From the NCBI GenBank assembly GCA_903847405.1, contig CAINDP010000182.1, forward strand, positions 1 through 32,093: 32,093 nucleotides of DNA, in the 5' to 3' direction. Positions 9 through 29,099 of the stretch are shown piece by piece; positions within the stretch are counted from its first letter, which is position 1, and each line of letters begins with the position of its first letter. The notes under the pieces are model-generated. The model saw only the letters and a program-made list of their open reading frames with translations. It was not told where the DNA came from and searched no databases. The DNA is from an uncultured Myxococcales bacterium (GTDB taxonomy: Bacteria > Myxococcota_A > UBA9042 > DTJE01). The position numbers and the translations under genes were made by a program.

Positions 9-130
9 GGGGCTGGTGACCATACCGGAAGGGCCATACCTGATTCCATCCCGAACTCAGAAGTCAAGCCTTCCAGGGCCGATGGTACTGCGGGGGAGAC
101 CCCGTGGGAGAGTAGGTCGTTGCCGGCCCC
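9..130 (+). rRNA. rrf: 5S ribosomal RNA
   Basis: This is a 5S rRNA of about 120 nt. The internal blocks CCGAACTCAGAAGTCAAGC and GATGGTACTGCGGGGG are typical of bacterial 5S loops B/C and helix IV/V. The ends pair as helix I: positions 9-16 (GGGGCTGG) with 123-130 (CCGGCCCC), giving eight pairs including one G-U. The true mature ends could be one or two bases inside these limits. Only eight bases precede it, so the 16S and 23S genes that normally lie upstream are outside the window. A 5S gene at a sequence edge is typical of contigs that break at repeated rRNA operons. Confidence 0.96.
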
Positions 131-1640: not shown

Positions 1641-2813
1641 CTATCGAGCAGTGTGCCCGCGAAGACGGATGCGGAGTTCCGCCCGGACCAGGCGGGCCAG
1701 CAGCGTCGCGGCGTTCCAGGCCCGGGCGGGCCCGGGTTCCGGGGACAGGGTTCCCATGCGATGGCCCAGTTTGTCCCGGACGACGGCAGCCGGCCGGTGG
1801 CGGATGAGAAAGGCGACCTGTCGCAGGCGCAGGGCATCGCGGTAGTCGGGGTCCAGGGCGCCGGCGACCAGATGCGCCAGGAGGGTCCCGGCGGGGCTGG
1901 GTTCGCCCAGGACGGTCAGGCCGGCCGAAACCAGGCGCGCGACCAGGGTCAGTGCGGCGTCCCGTTCGACCGGGGAAACCGCGTCGCCCACGAATCGCCC
2001 GACCTGCCCGGCGATCGCCGGATGCAGGGGCGCCGGGCCCAGGACGTCCGCCAGATCGCACAGGACCCGCATCGGGGGATACCGATCGGCCCCGAAGCCG
2101 TGGTCGTCGATCCCGTGGACCAGGGCGTGGGCGGCAAGGATGCCCGGTGCCGGGACCACGGAGCGGCCGGGCAGGGCGCCAAGCGCCAACAGACAACCGT
2201 TTCCGTCGAGCGCCTCGAAGTTCATCGAACCCGCCCGGCCCGGGACCACGCAGCCGGGGATTTCCAGGTGCACCTCCACCCAGGGATCGGCGCGCTGCCC
2301 CAGCGGGGCCAGGTGGTGAAGGGAACGCGTGGTTCCCCGGGGCTCGAAGCCGGCGGTCCTGAGGGCGCGCTGGAGATCCTCGGCCCGTCCGCCGGGAGCC
2401 AGGACGTCGATGTCGGAGGTGCTTCGGGCCGAAACCAGCGCGTGCCCTGCCAGGTGCAACGCCGTCCCCTTGAGGAAGGCTACCGGCAGGCCGGCGCCGG
2501 CGGCGATTTCCGCGACCCGCCCCGCGGTGCGGAGGATCCGCAGCGTCGAGGCGGCCACGCGCCGGCGTTCGGCGACTGCCGCCTGCAGACCCGGGGCGCC
2601 GACCTCCAGGGCCAGCGTCGCGTCGGGAATCCGTGAGGCAATGCGGCCCAGGAGGTCGAGGTCCTGCGCCAGGGCCACCGCGTGCGGGGCATCGGTCGGC
2701 CGCGGGGCCTCGAATTCGGGGGACGCGAACGCCCGCGCGAGAACCCAGGCGAGGTCCGGCGTGGCGTTCAGAGGTGGCGGATTGAATCGCAGGCGGGCGG
2801 AGGGGGCTCTCAT
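1641..2813 (-). CDS. Nucleotidyltransferase family protein (PF14907 type)
   Basis: A 390-residue protein of the polymerase-beta-like nucleotidyltransferase fold, as found in PF14907. The diagnostic core is LKGTALHLAGHAL followed by RSTSDIDVL. The two Asp of DID would bind metal, and the G-T segment would contact the triphosphate. The rest is helical and Ala/Leu-rich. Members of this family occur in some lasso-peptide clusters and in HprK-related peptide cassettes, where a tailoring role on the peptide is suspected but generally unproven. The start at 2813 is set by an ATGA overlap with the peptidase gene and an AGGAGG ribosome-binding site just upstream. A longer reading frame from 2876 would overlap the upstream gene heavily. 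It is the last gene of the operon. Confidence 0.8.
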   Translation of the reverse strand: MRAPSARLRFNPPPLNATPDLAWVLARAFASPEFEAPRPTDAPHAVALAQDLDLLGRIASRIPDATLALEVGAPGLQAAVAERRRVAASTLRILRTAGRVAEIAAGAGLPVAFLKGTALHLAGHALVSARSTSDIDVLAPGGRAEDLQRALRTAGFEPRGTTRSLHHLAPLGQRADPWVEVHLEIPGCVVPGRAGSMNFEALDGNGCLLALGALPGRSVVPAPGILAAHALVHGIDDHGFGADRYPPMRVLCDLADVLGPAPLHPAIAGQVGRFVGDAVSPVERDAALTLVARLVSAGLTVLGEPSPAGTLLAHLVAGALDPDYRDALRLRQVAFLIRHRPAAVVRDKLGHRMGTLSPEPGPARAWNAATLLARLVRAELRIRLRGHTAR

Positions 2814-3301
2814 GGGAGCCTCCTGCCGAGGCCGTGCCGCAGACGTTCCTTGAGGGCCGCGGGTACCCAGGGCCACGCGACGGCCCGGACCCCGCGGACC
2901 AGGGGCGCCGTGCCGCGGCCGAGGGCCAGCCAGGACCGGAAGGCGGGGCCGGTGGCCGGCATCCGGAACCCCAGGACCTGCACGAAGGCAACCGCACCCA
3001 CGAGGGCGTCGGTGGGCACCGGCGGGTCGGGGAGGGAGGCCCAGAGGCCCCGGGTGACCACCGGACCGGATGCGCCGTCGCCGACCGATTCCAGGGCATG
3101 GCAGACCAGGTTGCCCTGGATTTCCACGACCACGAGGTCGCCCTTTGCCAGGTGTGGCAGGTCGACGGCCCGGAGTTCCACCCAGGCGCCGGGAGGCACG
3201 GCGGGCAACAGGCTGAAGCCGAGCACCCGGAGGCGGACGAGGTCCCCCCGGCGCACCTGTGGGCGGATTTCACCGTCAGGCGGGCGCGCCGTGCGGGTCA
3301 T
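2810..3301 (-). CDS. S24/S26-type Ser/His peptidase, candidate leader peptidase
   Basis: A 163-residue protein resembling the catalytic core of signal peptidase I and LexA-like S24 peptidases. VLGFSLLP matches the nucleophile box (G-x-S-M-x-P in the family), with Ser as nucleophile. GDLVVVEIQGNLVCHAL matches the second box, with His where bacterial leader peptidases carry Lys. That gives a Ser/His dyad like the ER-type (SipW-like) enzymes. DALVGAVAFVQVLG matches the closing strand. No N-terminal membrane anchor is visible, so it is probably cytoplasmic. About 60 extra residues follow the core. In this operon the obvious inference is that it removes the leader of the modified peptide. The start is set by the ATGA overlap with the rSAM gene and the upstream GGGGAGGG. 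Loss of activity cannot be excluded. Confidence 0.7.
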   Translation of the reverse strand: MTRTARPPDGEIRPQVRRGDLVRLRVLGFSLLPAVPPGAWVELRAVDLPHLAKGDLVVVEIQGNLVCHALESVGDGASGPVVTRGLWASLPDPPVPTDALVGAVAFVQVLGFRMPATGPAFRSWLALGRGTAPLVRGVRAVAWPWVPAALKERLRHGLGRRLP

Positions 3302-4386
3302 CGGCCCTCCCCTGCCCCTTCGCGCAACCGGCGAAGGGCTTCCCCCAGGACGCGGGCCCGGGAACAGGCGGCCGGATACGGAGCATCGGGGCTGCCCGTC
3401 AGGATTTCCGCCTGGCCCGGGCAGAAATCGCACGTCGGTCGGAGTTCGCAGTCGCTGCACTGGTGGCGGTCGCCCTGGCGGAGGGCGCGCAGCCGGGCCA
3501 GGGCGTCGGAAGCCAGGACGGCCGGAAGACCTCCCTCCAGCAGATGCCCGAGGCGCCGCGGCCACGCCACGCAGGGGTTGATTTCGCCGGCCGGCGTGAC
3601 GTACAGGCGCGTGTGGCCCGCGGCGCACGGGGGAGCCGCGGGATCGGGAACGCGCGGAGCGGGTGCGGGTCGGTGAGCCATGTGTCGCAGGACCACGCCG
3701 ACCTGGGCCGCCTCGGACATGCTGGCCCGGCCGGCGGGAAGGCCGTCGCGCCGGGGCACGACCGAGGTCGATTCGATGATTCGCATGCCCCGGGCATGGG
3801 CCCAGTCCCAGAGGGCGCCGCCGTCGTCCTCGAGCCCCTCGACCACGCTGCGGGCGATCCGGACCGACACCCCCCGGGCAAGGAGGGCGTCCACGGCCCT
3901 CACGGCTTCCGCCCAGGCCCCGTCCCGGCCGACGAAGGCGTCGTGGATGGCCGCGGTCGCGGAATGGAGGCTGATGTCCACCAGCACCCAGCGAAGGGCG
4001 GCGAACCGGTCGGCGTCGGCCGCGGTCAACCAAAGTCCCGTCGTCTTCACCAGGACCGCGAATCCCCGCGCCCGGGCGGCTTCCAGGAGGATGCCGAAAT
4101 CCTTCCGCGCCATCGGCTCGCCGCCGGACAGGACGACCTGCGCCACCTCCAGCGCCCGGGCCTGGTCCAGGAGGTCCAGCCAGGCCCCCGTATCCAGTTC
4201 GGGGGACTTCCGTTCGCCCAGGTAGCAATGGGGGCAGGACAGGGGACACCGCCACGTCAGGTCCAGGTGGACCAGGAACAACCGGCCCTGGTCCGCATAG
4301 CGTTTTTCCAGGGCGCGGAGGGCGTCGCGAGGATTGCCGGCCATCCCGCCCGACAGACTCGGCGGGGCGTGCTGCGCGTCGCTCAT
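3298..4386 (-). CDS. Radical SAM/SPASM peptide-modifying enzyme
   Basis: A 362-residue radical S-adenosylmethionine enzyme. Cys47, Cys51 and Cys54 form the CxxxCxxC [4Fe-4S] site (CPLSCPHC), followed by a GGEP SAM-binding motif. The C-terminal part matches a SPASM domain: C-x12-G-x4-C, then C-x2-C-x5-C-x2-C (CSDCELRPTCDFC), then a final Cys after a gap. That fits two auxiliary Fe-S clusters. SPASM enzymes commonly modify ribosomal peptides through thioether, C-C or C-O crosslinks or epimerisation. Here the neighbouring 61-residue Cys peptide is the likely substrate. This is inference from context, and the reaction cannot be predicted. The start ATG overlaps the HprK stop and has GGGGG upstream. 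Confidence 0.9.
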   Translation of the reverse strand: MSDAQHAPPSLSGGMAGNPRDALRALEKRYADQGRLFLVHLDLTWRCPLSCPHCYLGERKSPELDTGAWLDLLDQARALEVAQVVLSGGEPMARKDFGILLEAARARGFAVLVKTTGLWLTAADADRFAALRWVLVDISLHSATAAIHDAFVGRDGAWAEAVRAVDALLARGVSVRIARSVVEGLEDDGGALWDWAHARGMRIIESTSVVPRRDGLPAGRASMSEAAQVGVVLRHMAHRPAPAPRVPDPAAPPCAAGHTRLYVTPAGEINPCVAWPRRLGHLLEGGLPAVLASDALARLRALRQGDRHQCSDCELRPTCDFCPGQAEILTGSPDAPYPAACSRARVLGEALRRLREGAGEGR

Positions 4387-5204
4387 GGTGCCCCCAGGAT
4401 GGCCCAGGGGGACTGATCCGGCGGGAGGCCCAGGCGCAGGACTCCGGGGTGCTGTGCCAGGCGCAGGGCGGCGTCGAGGACCCGCTCGCGAACCGGGAGG
4501 GCGTTGTCCGGGACCTTGGCCCGGAGGACCAGCAGGGTCACCGCTTCGGCGGTCGAAAGACGCACCCAGTTCGGCGGCTCCCCTTTCCGGAGGTCCACGA
4601 TGCGGGCCAGGGGCGCCGCGGTGCCGGTCGTGGAAACGCCCTCCCGTCCGGGGAACGGCGAAGGGACGACCCAGTGCCCCCCGCGGCCGGGAACGATCAG
4701 CGCCATGTCGTCGGCCAGGGCGCCGGCGCCGGCATGGCGACGGACCAGGGTCGTCTTTCCGCCGCCGGAGGGCGCCAGGAACACCGTGGCGCCCTCGGGA
4801 CGTGTCGCGGCCGCCGCGTGCAGGGCCAGTCCGCCCAGGGCCAGGAGGGCCTCGCTGACGAAATACCGCAGGAACTGCCGCAGGCCGAACTCGGGGGCTG
4901 CGGGTGCCGGGAGTTCCACGATCCGGACCGTCACCGAGGCCAGTCCATCGCCCTCGGCCACCCACAGCGGGTCGTGTCCCAGTCGCCAGGGACCGAGGGC
5001 GGGATCCCCCTCGCGGACGTAGGGGCGGTGGGGTGGCAGGCGGCCTGGTCGCGGTACCAGGTGGATGTGCGCATCCAGGAGAACCGGAACGTCGGTTTCG
5101 GGGGCGGAAACGGGCCACCGGGATGCAACGGCGTGGACCGCAGCCAGCAGTCCGGCGGATTCCGTCGTGATCTGCAGCCGGATCGGGCCGGTGACGAAGT
5201 CCAT
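4383..5204 (-). CDS. HprK-related P-loop kinase-like protein
   Basis: A 273-residue protein similar to the C-terminal kinase domain of HPr kinase. LHAAA (about 128-132) and the P-loop APSGGGKTT (144-152) are followed by ALADDMALI (162-170). The last matches the conserved aspartate pair after the P-loop in HprK-like proteins. The 100-residue N-terminal part has no motif that I recognise. Related kinases occur in paeninodin-type lasso clusters, where they phosphorylate the precursor, and in families that NCBI names HprK-related kinase A/B next to PqqD proteins. A role in phosphorylating the adjacent peptide is plausible. The start codon lies 1 nt after the peptide stop with no clear ribosome-binding site, so translation is probably coupled to that of the peptide. 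Confidence 0.8.
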   Translation of the reverse strand: MDFVTGPIRLQITTESAGLLAAVHAVASRWPVSAPETDVPVLLDAHIHLVPRPGRLPPHRPYVREGDPALGPWRLGHDPLWVAEGDGLASVTVRIVELPAPAAPEFGLRQFLRYFVSEALLALGGLALHAAAATRPEGATVFLAPSGGGKTTLVRRHAGAGALADDMALIVPGRGGHWVVPSPFPGREGVSTTGTAAPLARIVDLRKGEPPNWVRLSTAEAVTLLVLRAKVPDNALPVRERVLDAALRLAQHPGVLRLGLPPDQSPWAILGAP

Positions 5205-5205
5205 G

Positions 5206-5391
5206 TCAGGCCAATAGACCGCAGCCGTCCTCTTCGCTGAGGGCGCCGATTCCGCACCCCGAGGAGGCTGCCAGGACGACGGCGTCGGTCGTCTGCTCGG
5301 TCAGGACGACCGGCTTGCCGTAGGAACGCTTTGCGTCACGCTTCACGTCGGGCGTCGCCGCCGGACCGGGTGTTTTCGTCTGCTCGCCCAT
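5206..5391 (-). CDS. Putative RiPP precursor peptide with two GCG motifs
   Basis: A 61-residue peptide between the giant lipoprotein and the HprK-like gene. The first 23 residues are polar and Lys/Pro-rich. SYGKPVVL (23-30) resembles the Y-x-x-P-x-[LV] leader box bound by PqqD-like recognition elements in lasso and related pathways. The tail after about residue 40 has two GCG triplets, Cys46 and Cys57, flanking Ser/Glu/Asp residues, and ends GLLA. I infer leader 1-42 and core 43-61; the boundary is uncertain. It has the clearest ribosome-binding site of the operon, GGAGGA at 5396-5401, four bases before the ATG, consistent with high output. It lacks membrane segments and zinc-finger spacing. 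It could be an unrelated small protein, but the context makes a precursor the best reading. Confidence 0.75.
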   Translation of the reverse strand: MGEQTKTPGPAATPDVKRDAKRSYGKPVVLTEQTTDAVVLAASSGCGIGALSEEDGCGLLA

Positions 5392-5405
5392 CGGGTCCTC
5401 CGTTT

Positions 5406-8400
5406 CTAGTACAGGATCATCGCATATCCGGCCCCGTCCGTCCCGACGAGGAGGTCGGGGAACCCGTCGCCGTTGAAGTCGCCGACGGGAACCGCACCAA
5501 AGTATCCGAATCGGAAGGCCGTCGGGTCAAGTGGATCGACCAGAATCGGCGATTCGTATGGGAACGTGCCGTAGGCGAAGGCTCCCGCCGGGTCCTTCAC
5601 GTTCCGACGGATGAACACCTTTCCGTGGTTCGTGCCGGACGCGAAGATGACGTACGCGATGTCCGCCGTCCCGTCGGCGTCGTTGTCGAAGTTCCCGATC
5701 GGCACGGCCTTGTCGTACTGGCCCGAGATCAGGAAGCCCTTTTCGTTCTGGACGATGCCGGTGCCCGTGCCGGTGGTCGCCAGGACCTGGATGGTGGAGC
5801 CGAACCGGGTCTTGAGGTACCCGCCCCGGAACATGTAGAGGGTCTTTGCGCCCGCCAACGGGGCGCCGCCCGTGTGCGTCACCAGGATGTCCGGGGAGCC
5901 GTCCTGGTCGAGGTCCTGCCGGCCCGCGATGCTGGAGTTGCCGAAACCGTCCGCGCCGCTGAGCGCGTCCGGCGCCAGGCGAATGACCGTGGCGTCGTCG
6001 GCGCCGCCCGTGGTCACGGCGACCGTGATGGCCGTCACGCCGGTCAGATCCCGGCCCTTGAACACGAGGACCTGCGACGGAGCCGCCGTGGTGGCTGCGG
6101 CCGCCTCGTCCTTGCCGTCCCCGTCGATGTCGCCTACGAAGGCGACCCGGAACCCGAAGCGGGTCGCCGCGGTTCCGCCGGTCATCGTCATTGCCACGAT
6201 GCCGTTGGCGGTCCTGTCGGCCGGGGTCTGGAGGTTGATCGCCAGGGCAGTGGCCGCATTCCAGGTGGACTTGCCGGGCAGCAGGTAGACGATGCTTCCG
6301 CCGGGCGAACCGATCAGGAGGTCGCCCACGCCGTCCCCGTTGAAGTCGCCGCCGCCCGCAACGGACACGGAGGCGACCGTCGTGACGATGCCGGTGATCG
6401 TGAGGTTCGGGGTGGCCGCCAGGCGCCCGGCCGAAACGCCGAACCAGACCTTGGCCGTCTGGGCGCCCAGTTTGCCTTCGCCCACGACCAGATCGTCGGT
6501 GCCGTCGCCGTTCAGATCGCCGGCCTCGACCACGGGGACGCCGAAGAGGGCGTCCGACGCGCCCGTCAGGCACTGGTGGTTGGTGCCAGTCGCCGCCGCG
6601 ATGGTCAGATCCGCGACGGTCTTGGCGGTGCCGGTGCCGTTGCCATACACGATGCAGAACGTGTTTCCGGTCGTTCCGCCGCCGCCGCCGACGACCAGGT
6701 CGCCCAGGCCGTCGTTGTTCAGGTCGCCCACGTAGGCCACGCGCTTGTTGAAGACGCTGTCGTTGTAGGGCGCGACCGAACCGGACACCCGTGCGTAGCG
6801 CAGGGACAGATCGACGTCCGCGACGCTGGAAGCGACGACCGGCGACGCGTTGCCGACGGCGTCGACGGCCCGGATGGCGAAGGCGTAGTTCGTGTCGCCG
6901 GGGTTCGTGCCCGCGACGAACTTGCAGGGAGTCCCGTGTTCCGTGACGGTGGGGTTCCGGATGTCCGGGCCCGTGATCGTGAAGGCCTCGGCCGTTCCGG
7001 GCGCCGCGGGTGCCTGCACGGCTGCCGTGTACACCAGGCCCGCGACGCTGCAGGCCGCGTTGAAGTCGGTTTCCGTCACGATGGGCAGGGGCGAGTAGCG
7101 GATGTCGTAGGACGTCGCCGCGCCGCCGGAGATCCCGTTGTCGCCCACGGCGTTCCACCGCAGGCTGACCGACGGACGGCGCGGATTGACGTCCGCCGTG
7201 GCCACGGTGTCCAGGGTCGGCGAGGACGGCGGCAGGAGATCGACCTTGGCCGCGAAGGTCGACGTCGCGGAGTTGCCTGCGACGTCCGTGGCCGTGAGGA
7301 CGATCGAGCCGCTGGTCTGGTCGGTCAGGGTCACCGCGAGGCTGATGGAGGCCGGGGAGGCGACCATCGTGTAGGGCAGCGCGATGTTCGTCGGCACGAT
7401 CGCCACGCCGCCGTAGGTCAGGGAGGCGACCTGCCCGCCGGCGAGGTTGGTGTCCGTGATCTGGGCCGAAAGGGCTTTCTGGAGGCCCGCGCTGGTCGCG
7501 TTCTCGTCGGCTGCCGTGCCCCACTTGTTGTCGGAGGCGGGGGCCGGACTGGTGAATGCCACGACCGGGTCCGCGAGATCGACGGTCCGGGCCAGGGCGC
7601 CCGACGAGCCCGACTGCGTGCCGCTTTCGAAGGCGCGTCCCTCGAAGGTCAGGGCGGCACCGTCGTTGACCGTCGCGGTGAACGTGGCCGACTGGCCCGT
7701 CAACGGCTTTTCCTGGGTCGCCACGCCGGTCTGCAGCAGGCGGACGGAATCCACTGCCCCGCAGGACGTCGACACCGTCACGGTGACCGTGAGGCTGGTG
7801 GAGGCGCAGTCCGTCCCCGGGGTCGGGCAGGACAGGTTGTTGATGTAGGAGCCGTTTCCGACGCCGGCCAGCGAGACCTGGCACTCGGCGAGGTTCATGG
7901 TGATGCCGGCCGTGCTGGAGTTGCTGTTCCCAACGCCGTCGGTCACGACCGCGAGGACCATGTAGTACGGGGTCGCCGCCGCGGGAAGGGTCGGGAAGAG
8001 CGACGGCTCGAGGCCGCCGGCCGCGGTGATGGCGCCCTGGGCGATGCGCACGGGCGGATCGCAGGTCGTGAAGGTGGCGTCGCAGTTGGTCGCCAACTGG
8101 ATCTGCCAGGCGGAGGCGTCGGTGCTGGGGGAGCCGAAAGAGACCTCGATCTGGAAGCCCGGCGAGCCCGGGCGCGCGTCGTCGGCATCGGTCAGGACCG
8201 CGCCGCCCACGGGCTTCACCAGCAGAACGTCCGGGAGAACCGTGTCCACCGTGACGGCGTGCGTCGCGACGGCCGGGTTGCCGGCGTCGTCCGTGACGCG
8301 GGCCTCCAGGGTGTGGTCGCCGTCGGTCAGCACCGGCAGCGACGCGAACGGGAAGGTGACCAGGCCGCTGGCGCCGACCGTGGCAGTGTCCTGCTGGACG

Positions 8401-11400
8401 CCGCCGTCCAGGAGGGTGACGACGCGCCCGATGGCGCCATCGGACGAAATCACGATGTCGCGGGAGTCGCCGGCCTTGAGGACCGCGGCCCCGGGGTTGT
8501 CGAAGCCGAGGAGCGGCGCCGTTGTGTCCACGGTCGGCCGGTAGTACACCACCGCGGGCGACGAGGGCAGGGGACTGACGTTTCCGACGAGGTCCGTCAC
8601 CCGGGCGTGGATTTCGTTGGCGCCCTCGCGCAGCGTGGCGTCCAGGGCCAGGTCGCCGGTGAAGTCCGCGGAACCGGCGCCGTCCACGCCGTTGAGCACC
8701 ACGGCCAGGCTGCCGGGCTCGGACGCGACGACGCGGATCGAGTAGACGCGGCCCGCCGCGACCTGTTCGGCGATGTTCAGGACGTTGGCCGGCGCCTGGG
8801 TGTCCGACGGCGAGGTGATCGTCGTCACGACGGGCAGGACCGTGTCCTGGAAGACGTACCGGAAGCGCTCGATGGCGTTGGGGCTGGCGGTCGACGAACT
8901 CCAGGGCTGGCCGACCGTCAGCAGGCCCTCGGCGATGAGGCCGTGCGAGCCGTCCGGCAGGCCGGACACGGTGATCGTGGTGTTCCCGGTGCCCGCGCTG
9001 GATCCCAGGGCGACCTGGCGATAGCCCGCGGTGCTGCACGGCGTGCCCGGGAGGCCCGCCTTGTTGCTGCAGATCCGGAGGTTGTTGACGCCGGACGGCA
9101 GCGACGACACCGACACGATGAGGTTCTTCGGGGTGGCGGCGGCCCAGGGCGTCGCGCAGAAGCCCCCGGCGCAGACGCCGCCCGCAGCGCAGGTCGACGA
9201 CGTGGTGCAGGCCGTGTTGTTCACGAACACCGGCGACCCGAGGCGGATGACCGGCTGGTCGACCAGGACGTCGACCAGGCGGCTCAGCGTGGTCGTGTTG
9301 CCCGAGCCGTCCGTCGTGGACGCGGTCAGTTCGTAGGTGCCGTCCAGCAGCGTGACCCGCGGGAACACCAGTTCCCGGGTGGTCAGGTTCGGAACGGCGG
9401 TGTCGACCGTCACGGACACGCGGGCCATCGTGCCGCCCAGGGGGCCGTAGTCGATGTTGACGGCCATGCCGGCGTCGATGGCCGAAACGATGACCTTGAA
9501 GGTGAACTGGAGACCGGGCGTCGCCGGGTCCTCGTCGATGGTGTACGTCAGGGCGCCGACGTTCGGGTCGGGCTGCTGGAACGCCACGATGATCGGGGCG
9601 AACCGGTCGACCCGGACCGAGATCGGGCCGGCCGTGACCGTCTGGTTCGCCAGGTCGGTGGCCGTCGCCGTCAGGCTGCACGTCTTCTGGTCGATCAGGG
9701 TGACGTCCGGGATCGTGAGGACGCCGGTGTCCACGAAGCCGTGATAGACGATGGTCGATGTGCCGCAAGTGACGGTCAGTTGGCCCGCCTGGCCGTCCTC
9801 GATGTTCTGGGTGTCGATCAGGACGTTCAGGGCGCAGTTGGCCATTCCGGGCTCGCAGGCGACGGTCGCGAGGTTGATCACGTCCTCGTTCGCCGGCACC
9901 CGGAAGGTCAGGACGGGCTGATCGACCTTGAAGGACAGGAAGCGGGGCGCCGAAACGCCCTCGTCCCCGGCCACCGTCGAACGTGCCACGAACGTGTCGC
10001 CGGTGGTCGAAAGGGTCGTTACCGGGAAGGTGACGGTTCCGGTGGCGTCCGTGGCGCCGGTGTACGTGTCGGTTCCGTTGACGGAGACCGTGACCGGCGC
10101 GCCGGCCTGGACCACCAGCGCCACGTCGGTGACCTGCACCGTGAGGTTGAAGGACTGCACGGCCAGGGGGCCGTTCTTGTCGGGAGCGATGATGCGGACG
10201 CGCGGTCCCGGCAGGACCAGCGTGATCGTGCGGGCGACGGTTGCGCCGAGATTGCCGCCGACGTCGGTCGCCTGCGCGGACAGGTCGTTGCTGCCCGGCA
10301 GCAGGGTGACCGACAGGAACGTCGCGGAGGTCTCGCCGTCCGCGAGGGTCCTGCAGTCCTTGTCGCCGTTGACCGTCAGGCAGACCCTGGTCCCGGTTCC
10401 GCCGCCGGACACGACCGTGACGACCACCGTGGTCTGGTAGCCGGGGGCCGCATCCGAGTCCGCGTCGGTCGTCGGGTTCGTCGCCGGGTCCAGCGTGGCC
10501 GTCGGCGGCGTCGTGATGGCCACTTCGGGCGCCACGGTGTCCAGCGTGAAGGGGGCCTGCGTCCTGCTGGTCGGGGTATCCGCCGCCAGGTTGCCGAAGG
10601 CGTCCGTCGCACCCACGTCGAGGGTCCAGTCGCCGTCAGCGAGGGGCTGGCCACCGACCAGCAGCGGCAGCGTGAAGACCAGGCCGCCGCTCTTGATGGG
10701 GTTGGCCGGCGTGAACGAAAGCGCCTCGACGCCGAGCGCATCCAGGACGCGGACGACGGGTACCACGGTGTTCAGGTTCGTGGCCGCGAGGACGACGTTC
10801 AGGCTGGTCTTGTTGACCCTGGCCCCGATGGCCGGCTGCAGGATGCGCAGTTCGGGCGCCGGCAGGCCCACGCGGAAGGCCACGTTGCCGGACACCGACG
10901 GGTTGGAGGCGTTGTCCAGCACGCGGCAGGTCACCTTGCTGGTCAGGGCCTGCACCGACAGCGCGACGGCGATCGGGTACATCCCGTCCGTCGCGGGCGT
11001 GACGACCGTGAAACTGCCGACGGGCAGTTCGGGAGTGCCGAGGCGATCCTCGCGGCAGCGGACGGTCAGCGTGGTACCGGCCTGGACGGCCTCCCCCAGC
11101 ACGACCACGTTCGTTTCGTACACCAGGGCGGTCGCGGGGTTGCCGTCGTCCTTGGCCAGCAGGACCGCCCCCGCGGTCGGCGTCATGATCGTCAGGGCCG
11201 CCTGGGTGACCTTCGCCTGGAAGGTGAACTCGGCGCGTCCCGTGCGGCCGCAGGAATCCAGGCCCGTCGCGACGATGACGTGGCCGCCGTCGGCCGTCAA
11301 CGCCAGGTCCGGGACGCTCCAGAGGCCCCCGGCGTCCGGTACCGGGGCGCCGACGGCGGTGCCGTCGAGGGTGATGGCCAGGGGGTCGCCGGTCTGCATG

Positions 11401-12371
11401 CCCGCTGCCGTGCCCGCCGTGTCGAAGGTCAGGCCGTTCGACGGATCGCCGTCCTTGTCGTCCTGGAGGGTCAGGAGGGCCTTGGCGGGCGCCGTGATGG
11501 CGACCGTCGGGTCCACCAGGTCGAGGGTGTAGGCGAGGTCCGCGGTGACGGCCGTCCGGTCGGCGGCTGCCGTGTCGGAAACCTCGGCGGCCACCTGTAC
11601 GGAAACGCCGTCCACGCCGGCCGTGTGGTCCAGCAGCGTCGCGACGATCGTGGCCGCACCGGATGCGTCCAGGGGGACCGGGTCCGTCGTGGTGGTCGTG
11701 CCGTCGATGATGACCTTGAGGCGGGCCGTGGTGCACGTGCGTTCGGGGTTCGTGACCGTGAAGCTGACCTGGAAGCCGGCCGCAACCGGATCCGCGTCGG
11801 CCAGCACGCACGTCGCGTTGGTGGGCGTCAGGCCGATGCCGCAGGTTCCGATGTCCACCTTGACGGTCTTCAGGACCTCGCCGGTTTCCTGCAGGACGTT
11901 GGTCGCCTCGGCCCGCACTTCGTAGCCGCTGGGGTTGTGCGTCAGGCCGATGGTCGCGAATGTCGCGGTGCCGATGCCGGCCGTCACCACGGCCTTGACC
12001 GTGGACACCAGGCTCCCGGCCACGAACAGCCGGACGTCGGTGCCGTTTTCGATGTTCTTCGTCGTGACGACGATGTCCATCTGGAAGCCGGGGCTGTCCG
12101 CGTACGCCGCGGGCTCGTCGGACTTCACGAGGGTCACGATGTCCGTGTCCTGGCCCTTGGGGCCGGACGCGGTCTGGAAGACCATCGTCAGTTCCGGAGT
12201 GGTGACGACCTCGACCTCCGGAATGTCGGCGTCCGGGAGATCGGTCGTCCCGTCCTCGACGTCCGCGTCCGGCGTGTCGACCGCCCCCGTGAACGACACC
12301 GTGCCTCCGGTACAGGCGGAAAAGGCCGCCAGGACCAGTGCCAGAAGCAGGCTTGTCGATTTGCGGCTCAT
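5406..12371 (-). CDS. Giant lipoprotein: Ig-like repeats, FN3 and C-terminal FG-GAP propeller
   Basis: A 2321-residue secreted protein. The N-terminus has KSTSLLLALVLAAFSAC, a lipoprotein signal with Cys20 as the likely lipidated residue (Phe at -3 is unusual). Position +2 is Thr, which does not signal inner-membrane retention. An Asp-rich linker follows. Residues of about 60-1700 are roughly ten or more diverged Ig-like domains, many opening with an Asp-rich turn and a PGxQ-like motif. About residues 1050-1075 hold a four-Cys knot with spacing typical of myxobacterial surface proteins. A fibronectin-III-like domain lies near 1710-1850. From about 1860 to the end there are seven DxNxDGxxD-type FG-GAP motifs, a seven-blade propeller. 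The start overlaps the PqqD stop (ATGA) and has GGAGGAAGAGGG upstream. A role in adhesion, display or as partner of the peptide is inferred only. Confidence 0.9.
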   Translation of the reverse strand: MSRKSTSLLLALVLAAFSACTGGTVSFTGAVDTPDADVEDGTTDLPDADIPEVEVVTTPELTMVFQTASGPKGQDTDIVTLVKSDEPAAYADSPGFQMDIVVTTKNIENGTDVRLFVAGSLVSTVKAVVTAGIGTATFATIGLTHNPSGYEVRAEATNVLQETGEVLKTVKVDIGTCGIGLTPTNATCVLADADPVAAGFQVSFTVTNPERTCTTARLKVIIDGTTTTTDPVPLDASGAATIVATLLDHTAGVDGVSVQVAAEVSDTAAADRTAVTADLAYTLDLVDPTVAITAPAKALLTLQDDKDGDPSNGLTFDTAGTAAGMQTGDPLAITLDGTAVGAPVPDAGGLWSVPDLALTADGGHVIVATGLDSCGRTGRAEFTFQAKVTQAALTIMTPTAGAVLLAKDDGNPATALVYETNVVVLGEAVQAGTTLTVRCREDRLGTPELPVGSFTVVTPATDGMYPIAVALSVQALTSKVTCRVLDNASNPSVSGNVAFRVGLPAPELRILQPAIGARVNKTSLNVVLAATNLNTVVPVVRVLDALGVEALSFTPANPIKSGGLVFTLPLLVGGQPLADGDWTLDVGATDAFGNLAADTPTSRTQAPFTLDTVAPEVAITTPPTATLDPATNPTTDADSDAAPGYQTTVVVTVVSGGGTGTRVCLTVNGDKDCRTLADGETSATFLSVTLLPGSNDLSAQATDVGGNLGATVARTITLVLPGPRVRIIAPDKNGPLAVQSFNLTVQVTDVALVVQAGAPVTVSVNGTDTYTGATDATGTVTFPVTTLSTTGDTFVARSTVAGDEGVSAPRFLSFKVDQPVLTFRVPANEDVINLATVACEPGMANCALNVLIDTQNIEDGQAGQLTVTCGTSTIVYHGFVDTGVLTIPDVTLIDQKTCSLTATATDLANQTVTAGPISVRVDRFAPIIVAFQQPDPNVGALTYTIDEDPATPGLQFTFKVIVSAIDAGMAVNIDYGPLGGTMARVSVTVDTAVPNLTTRELVFPRVTLLDGTYELTASTTDGSGNTTTLSRLVDVLVDQPVIRLGSPVFVNNTACTTSSTCAAGGVCAGGFCATPWAAATPKNLIVSVSSLPSGVNNLRICSNKAGLPGTPCSTAGYRQVALGSSAGTGNTTITVSGLPDGSHGLIAEGLLTVGQPWSSSTASPNAIERFRYVFQDTVLPVVTTITSPSDTQAPANVLNIAEQVAAGRVYSIRVVASEPGSLAVVLNGVDGAGSADFTGDLALDATLREGANEIHARVTDLVGNVSPLPSSPAVVYYRPTVDTTAPLLGFDNPGAAVLKAGDSRDIVISSDGAIGRVVTLLDGGVQQDTATVGASGLVTFPFASLPVLTDGDHTLEARVTDDAGNPAVATHAVTVDTVLPDVLLVKPVGGAVLTDADDARPGSPGFQIEVSFGSPSTDASAWQIQLATNCDATFTTCDPPVRIAQGAITAAGGLEPSLFPTLPAAATPYYMVLAVVTDGVGNSNSSTAGITMNLAECQVSLAGVGNGSYINNLSCPTPGTDCASTSLTVTVTVSTSCGAVDSVRLLQTGVATQEKPLTGQSATFTATVNDGAALTFEGRAFESGTQSGSSGALARTVDLADPVVAFTSPAPASDNKWGTAADENATSAGLQKALSAQITDTNLAGGQVASLTYGGVAIVPTNIALPYTMVASPASISLAVTLTDQTSGSIVLTATDVAGNSATSTFAAKVDLLPPSSPTLDTVATADVNPRRPSVSLRWNAVGDNGISGGAATSYDIRYSPLPIVTETDFNAACSVAGLVYTAAVQAPAAPGTAEAFTITGPDIRNPTVTEHGTPCKFVAGTNPGDTNYAFAIRAVDAVGNASPVVASSVADVDLSLRYARVSGSVAPYNDSVFNKRVAYVGDLNNDGLGDLVVGGGGGTTGNTFCIVYGNGTGTAKTVADLTIAAATGTNHQCLTGASDALFGVPVVEAGDLNGDGTDDLVVGEGKLGAQTAKVWFGVSAGRLAATPNLTITGIVTTVASVSVAGGGDFNGDGVGDLLIGSPGGSIVYLLPGKSTWNAATALAINLQTPADRTANGIVAMTMTGGTAATRFGFRVAFVGDIDGDGKDEAAAATTAAPSQVLVFKGRDLTGVTAITVAVTTGGADDATVIRLAPDALSGADGFGNSSIAGRQDLDQDGSPDILVTHTGGAPLAGAKTLYMFRGGYLKTRFGSTIQVLATTGTGTGIVQNEKGFLISGQYDKAVPIGNFDNDADGTADIAYVIFASGTNHGKVFIRRNVKDPAGAFAYGTFPYESPILVDPLDPTAFRFGYFGAVPVGDFNGDGFPDLLVGTDGAGYAMILY

Positions 12372-12667
12372 CCCTCTTCCTCCCGTACGATGGCTTCCAG
12401 GACGTTCCGGGACACCAGCGAGTCCAGGAACGTCCGGACGTCGGCTTCCACGTCGTCGGCCTCGCCGGCATTGAATTCATGCCGAACGGCCGACACGATG
12501 TCATCCAGTGACCGTCCCGGGTGGCCCCGGAGGAGGTCCAGGACGAACGCTCCCACCGGGTCGGATACGACGTGGAACGCGCTGTCGGCCGAAAGCATGA
12601 AATGCTCATCGTCCAGCGAGCGGTGCACCACGTCTGGTCTGAGCCGGTAAACGGCAGCGCGGATCAT
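12368..12667 (-). CDS. PqqD-like peptide chaperone (RiPP recognition element)
   Basis: A 99-residue protein of the PqqD family, a small winged-helix RiPP recognition element that holds leader peptides for modifying enzymes. The motif pattern fits: YRLRPDVVHRSLDDE at the start, HVVSDPVGAFVLDLL in the middle (the usual N-x-x-G-x-x-[IVL]-x-x-L helix) and SLDDIVSAVRHEF followed by a C-terminal helix ending in a leucine-rich stretch. It heads the seven-gene operon and overlaps the giant lipoprotein by four bases. The ribosome-binding site before ATG 12667 is weak. The likely partner is the SYGKPVVL leader box of the peptide at 5206-5391. That gene is 7 kb downstream, an unusual separation. Confidence 0.85.
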   Translation of the reverse strand: MIRAAVYRLRPDVVHRSLDDEHFMLSADSAFHVVSDPVGAFVLDLLRGHPGRSLDDIVSAVRHEFNAGEADDVEADVRTFLDSLVSRNVLEAIVREEEG

Positions 12668-17209: not shown

Positions 17210-19746
17210 CCGCCCGTCTTTTCCCGGCCCGCACACGGGCTGCGGATGGGGGCGACCATGGGGGGCGCGGCATCCCCGGCGCCCGGGCGATGGTCCCGGG
17301 TGCCTCGATGGATGTGGATTGTCGGGATCGGAATCGGTGCGGCGGTCGTCCTGACCGTCGTCGCCCTCCTGGCGATCCGTCCGCTGGTCCTGAAGGTCGC
17401 CCGGGCCGAACTGGACTCCCGCCTCGCTCCGCTGTCCGACGCCCTGGGTCGCAAGGTCACCATCGGCGGCCTGTCTGCCGGGATCACCGAGGAAATCGTG
17501 CTGGCCGACCTGCGCCTGCCCGGGTCCGACGGCGGACCGGACACGCTGGTCATCCCGATGCTGCGACTGGGCTTTTCGCCCTGGGACCTCGTCCGGGGCA
17601 AGGCCATGCCCGACCACGTCGTGCTGGAGCGGCCGACCCTGACGGTCCGCCTGGACGGCGCCACCCCGACGGACCTGAAGGACCTGGCCGACGGGATCCA
17701 GCGATGGCGGGCCCGTCGTGGCCCGGGAAGCGGCGGCGGGGGCGGTGTCGGCGCGATGCCCGAGGTCCAGGTGAAGGACGGCGCCGTCGTGTTCCTGCAG
17801 GGGAAGGATCCGGTGCCGGTCGGCCGCCTGACGGGACTGCGCCTGGACGCCCGGCGCGGTGACGGCGCCCTGGAGGCGGACCTTTCGGCGACTGCCGAGG
17901 GGCTGGGAGCCGCGCCGACACTGCTCCGCGGCGTGGCCACGTACGACGCGACACGGATTGCCTACGCCAGCCTCGACTCGGACGCCCCGGTCGAGTGGAC
18001 GCGCCTCCTGGGGGCCCGGGCGCCCCTGGGGGCCTCGGTCGAGGGCGCCGGCGTGGACCTGGATCGCAAGACGGGGCGCTTGAAGGTGACCCTGAAGAAC
18101 CTCCGGTCGGAGGATGCGACGTCCCTGCTGCCCGCTGCGGTGGCCCGGTGGTTCCCTGCGGCGGGTCCCGTGGCTGCAGACGAGGTCCGGATCGAGGTCG
18201 ACGCCGCGCTGCTGGCCGCCGCCGCCGGGACGAAGGCTCTGCGCGAGGCCCTTCAGTCGGTGGCGATCCGGGGCGCCCGTGCCCGCCTGACGCCGTCCCG
18301 GGGGGCCTGGTCGGCGCTGGTCCTGGAGGGCGTGTCCTTCGACCTGAACCGTGCGCCCGACGGCAGCCTGCTGGGCCGCGTGTCGGGCGGAACGGCCCTG
18401 GGTACCGGGGCGCCGTCGCGGTTCGCGGCGGAAGCCCGCCTGGGGTCGGCCGACGAACTGAGGGGCGCCGCGGTCCGGCTGTCCGGGCCCATGGCGGTGC
18501 AGGCCCTCAGCCTCATCGACCGGCACGTCCTGCCGTGGCCCGGAGCCGACGTGGACCTGGACCTGTCGCTGGAGGGCGACGGGACGAAGTTCACGGCCTC
18601 CGGGCGGCTGGCGGGTTCCGGGCTGGCGTACTTCTGGACCAAGATCTGCCTGGTCCCGCTGACCGACCTCGCGTTTTCCGCCATCCTCCGCGGCGAACTG
18701 GACCTGGAAAAGCAGACCGGCCACCTCGTCGTGGATCCGCTGACCGTGGGGCGGGCCACCTTTTCGGCCGAGATGGGCGTCGAGGGGTTCCACGCAAAGC
18801 CCCGTCTTTCCATGCGCTTCACGATCCCGCGCCAGCCCTGCCAGTGGGTCGCGTCGGCCATCCCGCCGGTCATGGTGCCGCGCCTGGAGGGGATGGCCTT
18901 CCAGGGATCGATGGAGTTCGACATCCGCCTGTCGCTGGACCTGAACGGCCTGGAGGTCAAGACGGGCGGGCCTGAAAACAAGACGACCGTCAAGGGCGCC
19001 AGCCTCTCGGTGGACGGGGACTTCGAGGCGTGCGAGGCCCGGACGCTGGGGCGTCATGCGAACCTTCCGGCGCTGGACGAGCCGTTCGTGCACGTGATCC
19101 CCGCGGACGAGGAGGAGGACGCGCCGGCGATTTCGGTCGGGCCCGGCACGCCGTCCTACGTGGCGTTCGACAAGATCCCGGAGCCGGTCTGGCAGGCGGC
19201 GCTGGCGACCGAGGACATGGGCTTCTTCAAGCACGCGGGATTCAAGCTGGGCCTGATCAAGCGGGCCATCGTCCTGAATCTGGACAAGGGCTGGTACGTG
19301 TACGGCGGCAGCACGATCAGCCAGCAGTTGGTGAAGAACCTGTTCCTGTCCCGGGAAAAGACGCTGTCGCGGAAGCTGGAAGAAGCCATCATCGTCTGGC
19401 AGATGGAGCGGCGCCTGACCAAGGAGCGCATCCTGGAGCTGTACCTGAACTGCATCGAGTACGGGAAGCGCGTCTACGGGATCAAGGCCGCGGCGAAGGC
19501 GTACTTCAACCGGCCGGTCGAGGAGTTGACGCCCCTGGAGGGCGCGTTCCTGATGGCCACCAAACCGGCGCCCGTGAACGCCTACGGGGTCTACGAAAAG
19601 CGCCAGTTCAGCAAGTGGTGGGTCCAGCGCCTGCACGGCATCCTGGTGCGCCTGTCGAAGGAGATGAACGTGCTGGACGAGGCGCAGGTCCTGGCGGCGG
19701 CGCCCTACCTGCCCCTGTTCTGGTACCCGGAGGAAGGCGTGTTCGC

Positions 19747-21705
<1,959 letters not shown>

Positions 21706-27005: not shown

Positions 27006-29099
27006 CTACCGGCCGGCGGCCAGGCACGCCACCTCGTCGTCCGACAGGGCCCTGGCGAAGGCCTGGACGTCGGCCAGGCCCCCGGTGAAGCGGTCGAGGT
27101 TCTCGATGTCCGACCCGACGCGCGCCCGCCACGGGAAGGTGGCGCCCATCGCGAAGGCGGCGGTCTTCCGGGCCACGACGACGCCGTCGACGGCCAGGCG
27201 GGCCTCCCCGGCGTCGGCGTCCCAGGTCGCGGCCACGTGTGTCCAGGCCCCGGGCGTGAACGGCGCGTCCAGGCGCATCGGCCGTCCCCGGGCGTCGTGC
27301 AGGTCCAGCGCGACGCGACCGTCCGCCACCGAGAGGCGTACCGAACCATGGCGGCAGGGCTGGGAACCCCAGGTCGAACCCGCGGCGCAGAAGGGGCTGC
27401 CCGGAATGCCGACAGCCCCCGTCCCCCGGCCGGGAAGCGCCGTGCGCCGGGCCGGGTCCAGGCCGTCGGGACCGCCCCAGTACACGTGCGAGTCCAGGGC
27501 GTGCGTGGAGCCGTCCCAGGTGCTCGGCACCAGCACGTCGACCCACCCGTCGCCGTCCAGGTCGGCAGCGGCCATGCCCAGGCACCCGTTGGCGGGCAGT
27601 TCGACGCGGTCGTCGGGATGGAAGCCCGCGGCGGAACCCCGGTAGACCCGGGACGGCACGTCCAGCGGCTTCGTGAACCTTCCGTCCGCCCCCTTCGTGC
27701 CGTCGAAGTAGTTCGGCATCAGCAGGTCCGGCCAGCCGTCGTCGTCCAGGTCGGCCGCGGACGGGTCGATGCCCCCGAAGGAGGGCAGGGCCAAGAAATC
27801 GTCCGGGGTGAACCCCGTTGCGCTGCCACGGTAGATCCGCGAATCCACGTCGTACCGGTCGTCGGTCTGATCGGTCGTGCCCTTGTCGTCCCAGTAGGAA
27901 CCGAACACCAGGTCCACGTACCCGTCCTGGTCCAGGTCCAGGGCCGTGCTGCCGTAAGCCGAGTGCGTCGTCAGGCCGAGCCGTCGCGTGGCGTCGAACC
28001 CCTCGGCGGCGTTCGTGTAGATCCAGGACGTCGAGGGGCGGGAAACGCTGCCGTCGATGTTGCTGACGACGACGTCCGGGAGTCCGTCGCCGTTCACGTC
28101 GGCGACGGTCAGGCCGCCGGGCATGCCGGTGCGCGGGTCGGTGAGCGCGCCGGCGGGCAGGTGGACGTCCCGCGACCGGTCAAACCCCGCGGCGGATCCC
28201 CGGATCACCAGGGCCGAGGTGGGTTCGTCCTGGGCCTTCCCGAACACCAGGTCGTACCAGCCGTCGCCGTCGAGGTCCGCGATCGCCACGCCGCCGGCCG
28301 CGTCGTTCAGGGCGCCGTCCGGGTCCGGGACCAGGCCCGCGGCCGAGCCGCGGTAGATGTTGGTGGCGTTCGGGGCCGCCAGCCCGACGAACTTCTGCGC
28401 GACGACCAGGTCCAGCCAGCCGTCGCCGTCCAGGTCCGCCGACGCGATGCCCGACGCGGCGTTGGTGGGGAGGCGGAACGGCGTCAGGTCGATGCCGGCC
28501 GGGTGGTTGAAGTACACGAAGGAATCGGTGGCGTAGCCCGCCGTGTCGTCGTAGTTGTTCGCCAGGACCATGTCCAGGCGTCCGTCGCGGTCCAGGTCCA
28601 GCACGTCGCCCCGGTGGAACAGGACCCGCGTCCGGGGCCCCGCGGCGGCCTGGAAGAACAGCGCCACCGTGCCGGCGGAACCTCCGGGCATCGTCGCGGG
28701 GGATCCCACCCGAAGGAACGTGGAGCCGTCCAGGGACACGGCGGATGTCCGGGGGCCTGCGATGGCACCGAAAGCCCCGGAGGGCGTGGCGTCGTGGCCG
28801 TTCCCCGAGGCGTCCGGGAAGGCGCTGTTGGACAGGGAGTCGAGGGGCAGTTGGAGCCATGGATCCGCGGGCGGGACGCAGGTCGGGGGGACGTCCGGAG
28901 GGGTGTCCGGGGCGGCGTCCGCGTCCCCGGTCCCGCCAAGGTCACGGTCCGCGTCAGGGGTGTCGTCTCCGACCCCGTCCGGCTGCACCAGGCCCAGGTC
29001 CAGGTCCTCGCTGACGTCGGACCCGCGGGTGCTCCCGCCGCCGCAGGCCAGGCACCCCAGCACGATGATGGCGCCCGCGATCCGTCCATGGACCTTCAT
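27006..29099 (-). CDS. LamG lipoprotein with inserted seven-blade VCBS propeller
   Basis: A 697-residue outer-surface lipoprotein. MKVHGRIAGAIIVLGCLAC is a lipoprotein signal, with Cys16 or Cys19 as the lipidated residue. An Asp-rich linker to about residue 75 follows. The first half of a LamG/concanavalin-like fold starts near 80 (DASGNGHDAT, SLDGSTFLRVG, TVALFFQ, RVLFHRGD). Seven DxDxDGxxD calcium-type motifs, usually followed by IYRGSAAGF, then occupy about 180-560, a seven-blade propeller. The second half of the LamG fold follows (SVRLSVADGR, TPGAWTHVAATWD, ARLAVDGVVVA, GGLADVQAFARALSDDEVACL). The propeller thus appears inserted into the jelly roll. The start has only GGGGGAT upstream. 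It lies 65 bases after murD and could be cotranscribed. Its ligand is unknown. Confidence 0.87.
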   Translation of the reverse strand: MKVHGRIAGAIIVLGCLACGGGSTRGSDVSEDLDLGLVQPDGVGDDTPDADRDLGGTGDADAAPDTPPDVPPTCVPPADPWLQLPLDSLSNSAFPDASGNGHDATPSGAFGAIAGPRTSAVSLDGSTFLRVGSPATMPGGSAGTVALFFQAAAGPRTRVLFHRGDVLDLDRDGRLDMVLANNYDDTAGYATDSFVYFNHPAGIDLTPFRLPTNAASGIASADLDGDGWLDLVVAQKFVGLAAPNATNIYRGSAAGLVPDPDGALNDAAGGVAIADLDGDGWYDLVFGKAQDEPTSALVIRGSAAGFDRSRDVHLPAGALTDPRTGMPGGLTVADVNGDGLPDVVVSNIDGSVSRPSTSWIYTNAAEGFDATRRLGLTTHSAYGSTALDLDQDGYVDLVFGSYWDDKGTTDQTDDRYDVDSRIYRGSATGFTPDDFLALPSFGGIDPSAADLDDDGWPDLLMPNYFDGTKGADGRFTKPLDVPSRVYRGSAAGFHPDDRVELPANGCLGMAAADLDGDGWVDVLVPSTWDGSTHALDSHVYWGGPDGLDPARRTALPGRGTGAVGIPGSPFCAAGSTWGSQPCRHGSVRLSVADGRVALDLHDARGRPMRLDAPFTPGAWTHVAATWDADAGEARLAVDGVVVARKTAAFAMGATFPWRARVGSDIENLDRFTGGLADVQAFARALSDDEVACLAAGR

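Follow-up and report, generated by a model that had tools for sequence, protein, structure and literature searches.

The locus considered here raises the question of why genes of the kinds used to modify small peptides should lie in one operon with the gene of a giant surface lipoprotein, and whether the two belong to one functional system. The window, which is the whole stretch of DNA analysed (32,093 nucleotides), is an entire contig from a 5.65-Mb genome. By its start and stop codons the operon comprises seven genes on the minus strand, running from 12667 to 1641 (Table 1). Consecutive genes overlap by 4 nt (ATGA) at four junctions and are separated by gaps of 14 nt and 1 nt at the other two, and a lipoprotein of 2321 residues is encoded between the PqqD protein and the peptide; the coordinates agree with the initial annotation on these points. 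A GGAGG site is located in the 14-nt gap ahead of the peptide gene. A weak promoter-like match (9 of 12) also lies within the lipoprotein gene, near its 3' end (5530-5501, minus strand) and some 110 nt ahead of the start of the peptide; 0.2 such matches are expected in the region scanned.

Judged from sequence, the operon is more than a product of chance, for its gene set recurs across the phylum. Its core is made up of the genes for the PqqD protein, the giant lipoprotein, the peptide, the HprK-like kinase, the radical SAM/SPASM enzyme and the soluble S26 peptidase. The PF14907 gene, initially counted as a member of the set, is not part of this core. It is a local addition, confined to the window's family among lipoprotein loci with this gene order.

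Table 1. Positions of the operon genes and of the features located within them
Feature	Positions	Strand	Basis
PqqD-family RiPP recognition element, 99 aa, operon gene 1	12368..12667	-	PF05402 4.7e-11
Giant lipoprotein, 2321 aa	5406..12371	-	lipobox, Ig-like domains in tandem, C-terminal FG-GAP propeller
Lipoprotein C-terminal head, residues 1702-2321, predicted integrin-alpha-type beta-propeller	5409..7268	-	AF2 model and Foldseek
Precursor-like peptide, 61 aa	5206..5391	-	YGKPVV leader motif, then core with Cys
YGKPVV leader motif of the peptide, Y24-V29	5305..5322	-	family alignment
HprK-like peptide kinase, 273 aa	4383..5204	-	alignments and AF2 model
Radical SAM/SPASM enzyme, 362 aa	3298..4386	-	PF04055, PF13186
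S26-type Ser/His peptidase-like protein, 163 aa	2810..3301	-	conserved S30, H68; TIGR02228 below cut-off
NTP_transf_5 (PF14907) nucleotidyltransferase-like protein, 390 aa, accessory	1641..2813	-	PF14907 5.2e-14

Enzymes encoded in the operon

Six of the genes had been assigned at the outset to classes known from peptide-modification pathways. The PqqD, PF14907 and Radical_SAM/SPASM assignments are supported by Pfam, whereas the HprK and S26 assignments remain below threshold in single-sequence HMM searches; the latter two identities rest on catalytic residues conserved in alignments and, for the HprK-like protein, also on a confident model. No curated NCBIfam cut-off is met by the kinase, PqqD, radical SAM or S26 protein of the window. 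The PqqD protein has been aligned with 21 homologues encoded directly or closely upstream of a giant lipoprotein.

The HprK-like protein reaches E-values of only 3.6e-6 with ScmC and 0.003 with HprK_rel_A. Its AF2 model (pLDDT 91.1) predicts a PEPCK-type P-loop kinase fold, the best solved matches being PEP carboxykinases, which are relatives of HprK. The catalytic His (H129), the Walker A motif GxGK[ST] (G147-x-G149-K150-T151) and the Asp-Asp pair (D165, D166) are mostly invariant in the alignments (A4, A6). The residues listed for BsfK, the kinase of Bradymonas (H148, G166, G168, K169, S170, D186 and D187, with G163 as first glycine of the P-loop; PMC10368454), are all matched in the window kinase except this first glycine, which is Ala144. 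Two HprK-like genes are arranged in tandem in one cluster in L122 (G105) and in L128 (G165).

The radical SAM/SPASM enzyme (Pfam Radical_SAM 1.4e-17, SPASM 4.9e-7) has a conserved CxxxCxxC motif (C47, C51, C54) and conserved SPASM cysteines (C254, C272, C310, C313, C319, C322) in the alignments A3 and A7. Its nearest solved relatives are SkfB (3.7e-41) and PqqE (4.1e-38).

The S26-like protein matches the archaeal signal peptidase I family at 4.9e-4, with 20 bits against a cut-off of 51.85. The serine (in GxSMxP) and the histidine (in HR) are conserved across the lipoprotein loci, and no membrane segment is evident in the protein. One S26 homologue scores weakly with the curated family of Ni-SOD maturation proteases, which are a precedent for a soluble S26 enzyme removing a leader. 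Two loci that lack the lipoprotein (L054 and L056, from G066 and G070) have Cys in place of the catalytic Ser (GACM, GHCM).

The precursor-like peptide and the giant lipoprotein

The peptide has the features by which a RiPP precursor is recognised, namely a short encoded precursor, a conserved leader, a variable core and adjoining genes for modifying enzymes. Each of the 21 loci of the class that were inspected closely encodes, between the lipoprotein and the HprK-like kinase, a short peptide that has a [YWF]xxP motif and one to four cysteines. The alignment of 19 of the peptides from the class (A1) has an invariant Pro and a near-invariant Tyr in the motif, the latter replaced by Trp or Phe in few. 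A single convincing copy is encoded in the window's genome, and none of the NCBIfam families meaningfully matches the peptides tested.

The first Cys lies at a nearly fixed distance from the motif residue: 18 in 16 of the 20 peptides from other classes, and 19-22 in 20 of the 21 from the class itself. A C-terminal Ser or Thr is found in 16 of those 20 (p 3e-10) against 6 of the 21 of the class. In 31 of all 41 peptides the first core Cys is preceded by Ala, Gly or Ser (binomial p 7e-11). These p values are optimistic, since related sequences have been counted as independent. Cores are identical between congeneric species (L041/L042, L099/L100).

Two other readings of the peptide have been rejected. 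The sequence 'LxSC' before the first Cys could be taken for a lipobox, but a hydrophobic signal region is absent, and the Leu stands at -2 in the outer families. A cofactor precursor of the PQQ or mycofactocin kind is rejected as the main reading because the core differs between families and has no invariant residue.

The lipoprotein begins with a lipobox that ends in LAAFSAC, with the Cys at codon 20. Lipoboxes are read in many of its homologues as well, and the outer-membrane location is inferred from them. The Ig-like and FG-GAP content has been confirmed by Pfam. Homologues in 18 loci are colinear, share 29-76% identity and are mostly full length at about 2300 aa, and Cys and acidic positions are conserved along these colinear lipoproteins of the class. 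Over the loci of the phylum the size ranges from about 1200 to 2600 residues.

The C-terminal head has been modelled (AF2 pLDDT 87.4, pTM 0.87). A Foldseek search of the PDB ranks integrin alpha headpieces first (best E 7e-11; TM-score about 0.36-0.46 scaled to the query and at most 0.60 scaled to the target). This similarity between a predicted model and the integrin heads is a resemblance of fold and is proof neither of kinship nor of function nor of peptide binding.

Conservation of the gene set in Myxococcota

A profile search of 52 genomes of the class has identified the lipoprotein in 43 and the HprK-like kinase in 41. In all 39 genomes that have both, the kinase gene shares its contig with the lipoprotein gene or with the C-terminal part of it. 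Relatives lacking the peptide or the lipoprotein had been named as the observation that would refute the association, and it withstands this in the class, where the two genes, when both are present, always share a contig. The four genomes with the lipoprotein alone (G008, G023, G030, G049) all have it at a contig end; in G049 the contig stops within the lipoprotein gene, and in the other three the placement is taken from coordinates. In two further genomes, G006 and G012, HprK is matched less strongly and the lipoprotein is absent. A TPR (CpoB-like) lipoprotein and a LysM protein are encoded as a recurring pair downstream of the radical SAM gene in L046, L047, L055, L057 and L058; they are absent from the window and from other families and have been taken as ordinary neighbours.

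The survey of the phylum covered 284 genomes, with 40 further regions inspected, and was limited to Myxococcota. The order PqqD-lipoprotein-peptide-HprK-rSAM-S26 is also found in the families f30, f48 and f15 (L088, L091-L093, L096, L099-L101, L123), where the lipoproteins measure 1639-2641 aa and the flanking genes are unrelated; in L097, which has the same order, the radical SAM gene was not found. Other orders are seen in f22, f34, f45, f38 and f31, with lipoproteins of 1224-1430 aa: HprK-PqqD-rSAM-lipoprotein-peptide, S26-HprK-HprK-PqqD-rSAM-lipoprotein-peptide and rSAM-lipoprotein-peptide-S26. In these families too the peptide gene is located right behind the lipoprotein gene. The expectation that the peptide accompanies the lipoprotein in relatives is thus fulfilled in 39 loci (21 of the class, 10 of the same order elsewhere, 8 of other orders), which span many families, distant ones included, and at least three gene orders. 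The window's genome has about nine FG-GAP_3 reading frames, so that adjacency by chance would be improbable within a single family and can be neglected across several.

The HprK-like kinase is present in 56 of the 61 genomes in which the lipoprotein is matched strongly (E <= 1e-45), against 106 of the 223 others (Fisher p 4e-11, uncorrected for shared ancestry). A contig profile search with a lipoprotein alignment of six rows identified nine named loci of Myxococcota/Deltaproteobacteria; a contig scan with the HprK protein alone as query gave no matches.

The lipoprotein, which had been proposed as a member of the set, recurs across the phylum in that role but is not found in every cluster of related enzymes. 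Clusters with HprK, radical SAM and S26 genes and without the lipoprotein are known from L054 and L129-L132, and L056 has only HprK and S26. The enzymes therefore do not need the lipoprotein, which is obligate for only part of the wider kind. A distant lipoprotein homologue of 2603 aa is encoded in L102 (G162, 2204-10012), with no PqqD, HprK or peptide gene found nearby.

In the family f43 the genes are located in three places, with PqqD and lipoprotein together (L094, L095), peptide and HprK together (L117-L119) and radical SAM apart (L141-L143). Each of the three genomes (G154, G189, G217) has strong matches to lipoprotein, HprK, peptide and radical SAM enzyme, although the PqqD-lipoprotein pair has been read in only two, the lipoprotein being the only member of the pair seen in G217. 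Most loci group by gene-order type in the radical SAM tree, and f43 nests inside the f30 clade; the scattered arrangement is therefore probably a derived one, in which the parts have persisted unlinked. No other observation speaks as strongly for a joint function as this retention. No single origin of the link to the lipoprotein is claimed, as the deep nodes of the tree are weak. By eye, a methyltransferase-like protein is seen upstream of the f43 peptide and HprK genes (L117 5288-6310, L118 5262-6272).

Comparison with known systems and possible function

Peptide systems that combine HprK with PqqD, or radical SAM enzymes with PqqD, are kinds already known. Among the closest is the lasso bsf cluster of Bradymonas sediminis (PMC10368454), from a related host group, which resembles the window in its YxxP leader, PqqD-like protein, HprK-like kinase and nucleotidyltransferase. 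BsfK, a Myxococcota HprK-like kinase, phosphorylates a precursor with a YxxPxL leader, a PqqD-like protein helping, and alanine exchanges in this motif of BsfA did not abolish phosphorylation (PMC10368454); the leader motif alone may therefore not be what the kinase requires. The window operon shares the lasso-type recognition element and leader motif but has no ABC transporter, and instead encodes the radical SAM/SPASM enzyme, the soluble S26 protein and the giant lipoprotein. As had been remarked initially, an asparagine-synthase-like lasso cyclase is lacking among its seven genes. The transglutaminase-like B2 leader peptidase (PF13471) has no match in the whole genome, nor has the Peptidase_C39 exporter, for which the same search was positive in 8 of 14 control genomes. 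With both of these missing, the S26 protein is the best candidate for leader removal.

The SynChlorMet cassette (NCBIfam TIGR04248-TIGR04251), with its HprK-like ScmC, PqqD-like ScmD and SPASM enzymes, is among the best curated matches, but all scores are far under the cut-offs (ScmC 26.5/125, ScmD 24.5/100 and ScmE 74.8/400 bits), and we know of no giant lipoprotein in it. The HPr-rel-A system (TIGR04352, TIGR04353) likewise joins an HprK-related kinase to a PqqD-family chaperone, whereas the window scores 16.5/200 and 20.9/35; to our knowledge it does not occur with a radical SAM enzyme and a giant lipoprotein. The sactipeptide and PQQ-type maturases SkfB and PqqE also act on a short peptide, but their equivalog cut-offs are unmet, the substrate peptide is unrelated and the chemistry of the window enzyme is inferred. 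In DAG-RiPPs a RiPP pathway is joined with a lipoprotein pathway; there an MNIO enzyme modifies a precursor that itself bears the lipoprotein signal (PMC12636315), whereas here the peptide and the lipoprotein are separate products. A giant integrin-like lipoprotein dedicated to such a peptide pathway is not described in the literature searched, relative to which this lipoprotein and its persistence over a phylum are new.

We prefer to read the operon as a RiPP-type tailoring pathway to which a giant surface protein belongs as its dedicated partner. In this scheme the [YWF]xxP leader would be recognised by the PqqD protein, which would present the 61-aa peptide to the enzymes; the radical SAM/SPASM enzyme would probably form a crosslink at the core cysteines, the HprK-like kinase would phosphorylate core Ser/Thr and the soluble S26 protease would cut near the first Cys. 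An unlinked exporter encoded elsewhere would export the tailored peptide. The lipoprotein, placed in the outer membrane, would be an Ig-like stalk bearing the integrin-alpha-like propeller head, and the peptide would most likely serve with it, as its ligand or as a head-piece bound to it, in adhesion or in the recognition of cells. Every chemical step, the modification of the peptide, its export and its contact with the lipoprotein are inferences; the gene set and its linkage over the phylum, the adjoining peptide and lipoprotein genes, the conserved catalytic residues and the predicted folds are results of the analysis. It is highly probable that a single functional system unites the lipoprotein with the peptide pathway, even with the lipoprotein-free enzyme clusters and the solitary lipoprotein of L102 counted against it. 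The full mechanism is put forward tentatively and is doubted slightly more than it is believed, with the lack of an exporter in the operon and of a C39 peptidase-exporter in the genome, the mostly absent C-terminal Ser/Thr in the window's class and the Ala at the first P-loop glycine position held against it.

Small immunity lipoproteins such as NisI and SpaI adjoin bacteriocin genes and protect against some bacteriocins by binding or titrating them, and the peptide might accordingly be an antibacterial RiPP that the giant surface protein binds or titrates for the protection of the producer, a reading that fits the position of the lipoprotein gene directly before the peptide gene in all arrangements except the broken-up one. 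We consider it unlikely: we know of no immunity lipoprotein near 2300 aa, and this one, with one fixed domain plan, is far above the known ones in size; there is no exporter nearby, the single-copy locus is kept in most of the class, unlike patchy bacteriocin loci, and congeneric species share the same cores. Mere co-regulation, in which old operon linkage holds an envelope protein together with a peptide pathway unrelated to it and without joint function, could be entertained because Myxococcota have several FG-GAP proteins per genome, some of which will adjoin anything; the conservation across families with different flanks in at least three orders, and the co-retention of the f43 parts, make it quite improbable.

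The lipoprotein might itself be the substrate of the PqqD protein, radical SAM enzyme and kinase, with the short peptide as regulator or second substrate. Modification of a lipoprotein is suspected in the radical SAM/lipoprotein system of Bacteroidota, where a SPASM enzyme is linked to a lipoprotein (TIGR04133), and the window enzyme scores weakly with this family; the PqqD and lipoprotein genes also stay paired in f43 where the others lie elsewhere. C-terminal modification of large proteins by a RiPP enzyme has been described for another enzyme class (PMC12636315). However, the TIGR04133 score is 59.7 bits against a cut-off of 425, that system belongs to another phylum, and the window differs from it in the giant size of the lipoprotein and in having a separate peptide. 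The leader motif familiar from PqqD-dependent systems sits in the peptide, and related enzyme sets occur with the peptide and without the lipoprotein. There is little likelihood, in our judgement, that the lipoprotein is the substrate.

RiPP pathways are mostly known for exported antibiotics or cofactors. In the loci described here the peptide gene has as its most constant companion a surface protein of about 1200-2600 residues whose head is predicted to be integrin-like, and this protein is kept across Myxococcota, a phylum noted for social behaviour that depends on contact. A ligand-receptor system across the phylum, in which a peptide tailored by the radical SAM enzyme and the kinase acts with the giant integrin-like lipoprotein in adhesion, kin recognition or signalling, remains possible and is held with more reserve than the mechanism above; the system would be categorically new only if this function were shown. 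Should the peptide and the protein bind, they would be a bacterial peptide-receptor pair in which the chemistry of the ligand can be modified. The operon also offers one defined common substrate on which HprK-like kinases, SPASM enzymes and soluble S26 proteases could be tried.

The window has three further features outside the operon. A 5S rRNA gene (12-128, plus strand; Rfam RF00001, 110.6 bits) is located at the contig edge. An 869-aa protein with a Transglycosylase domain and a partly DUF748-like N-terminus is encoded at 17246-19855 on the plus strand, and a second FG-GAP protein, of 697 aa and with a Laminin_G_3 domain, at 27006-29099 on the minus strand.
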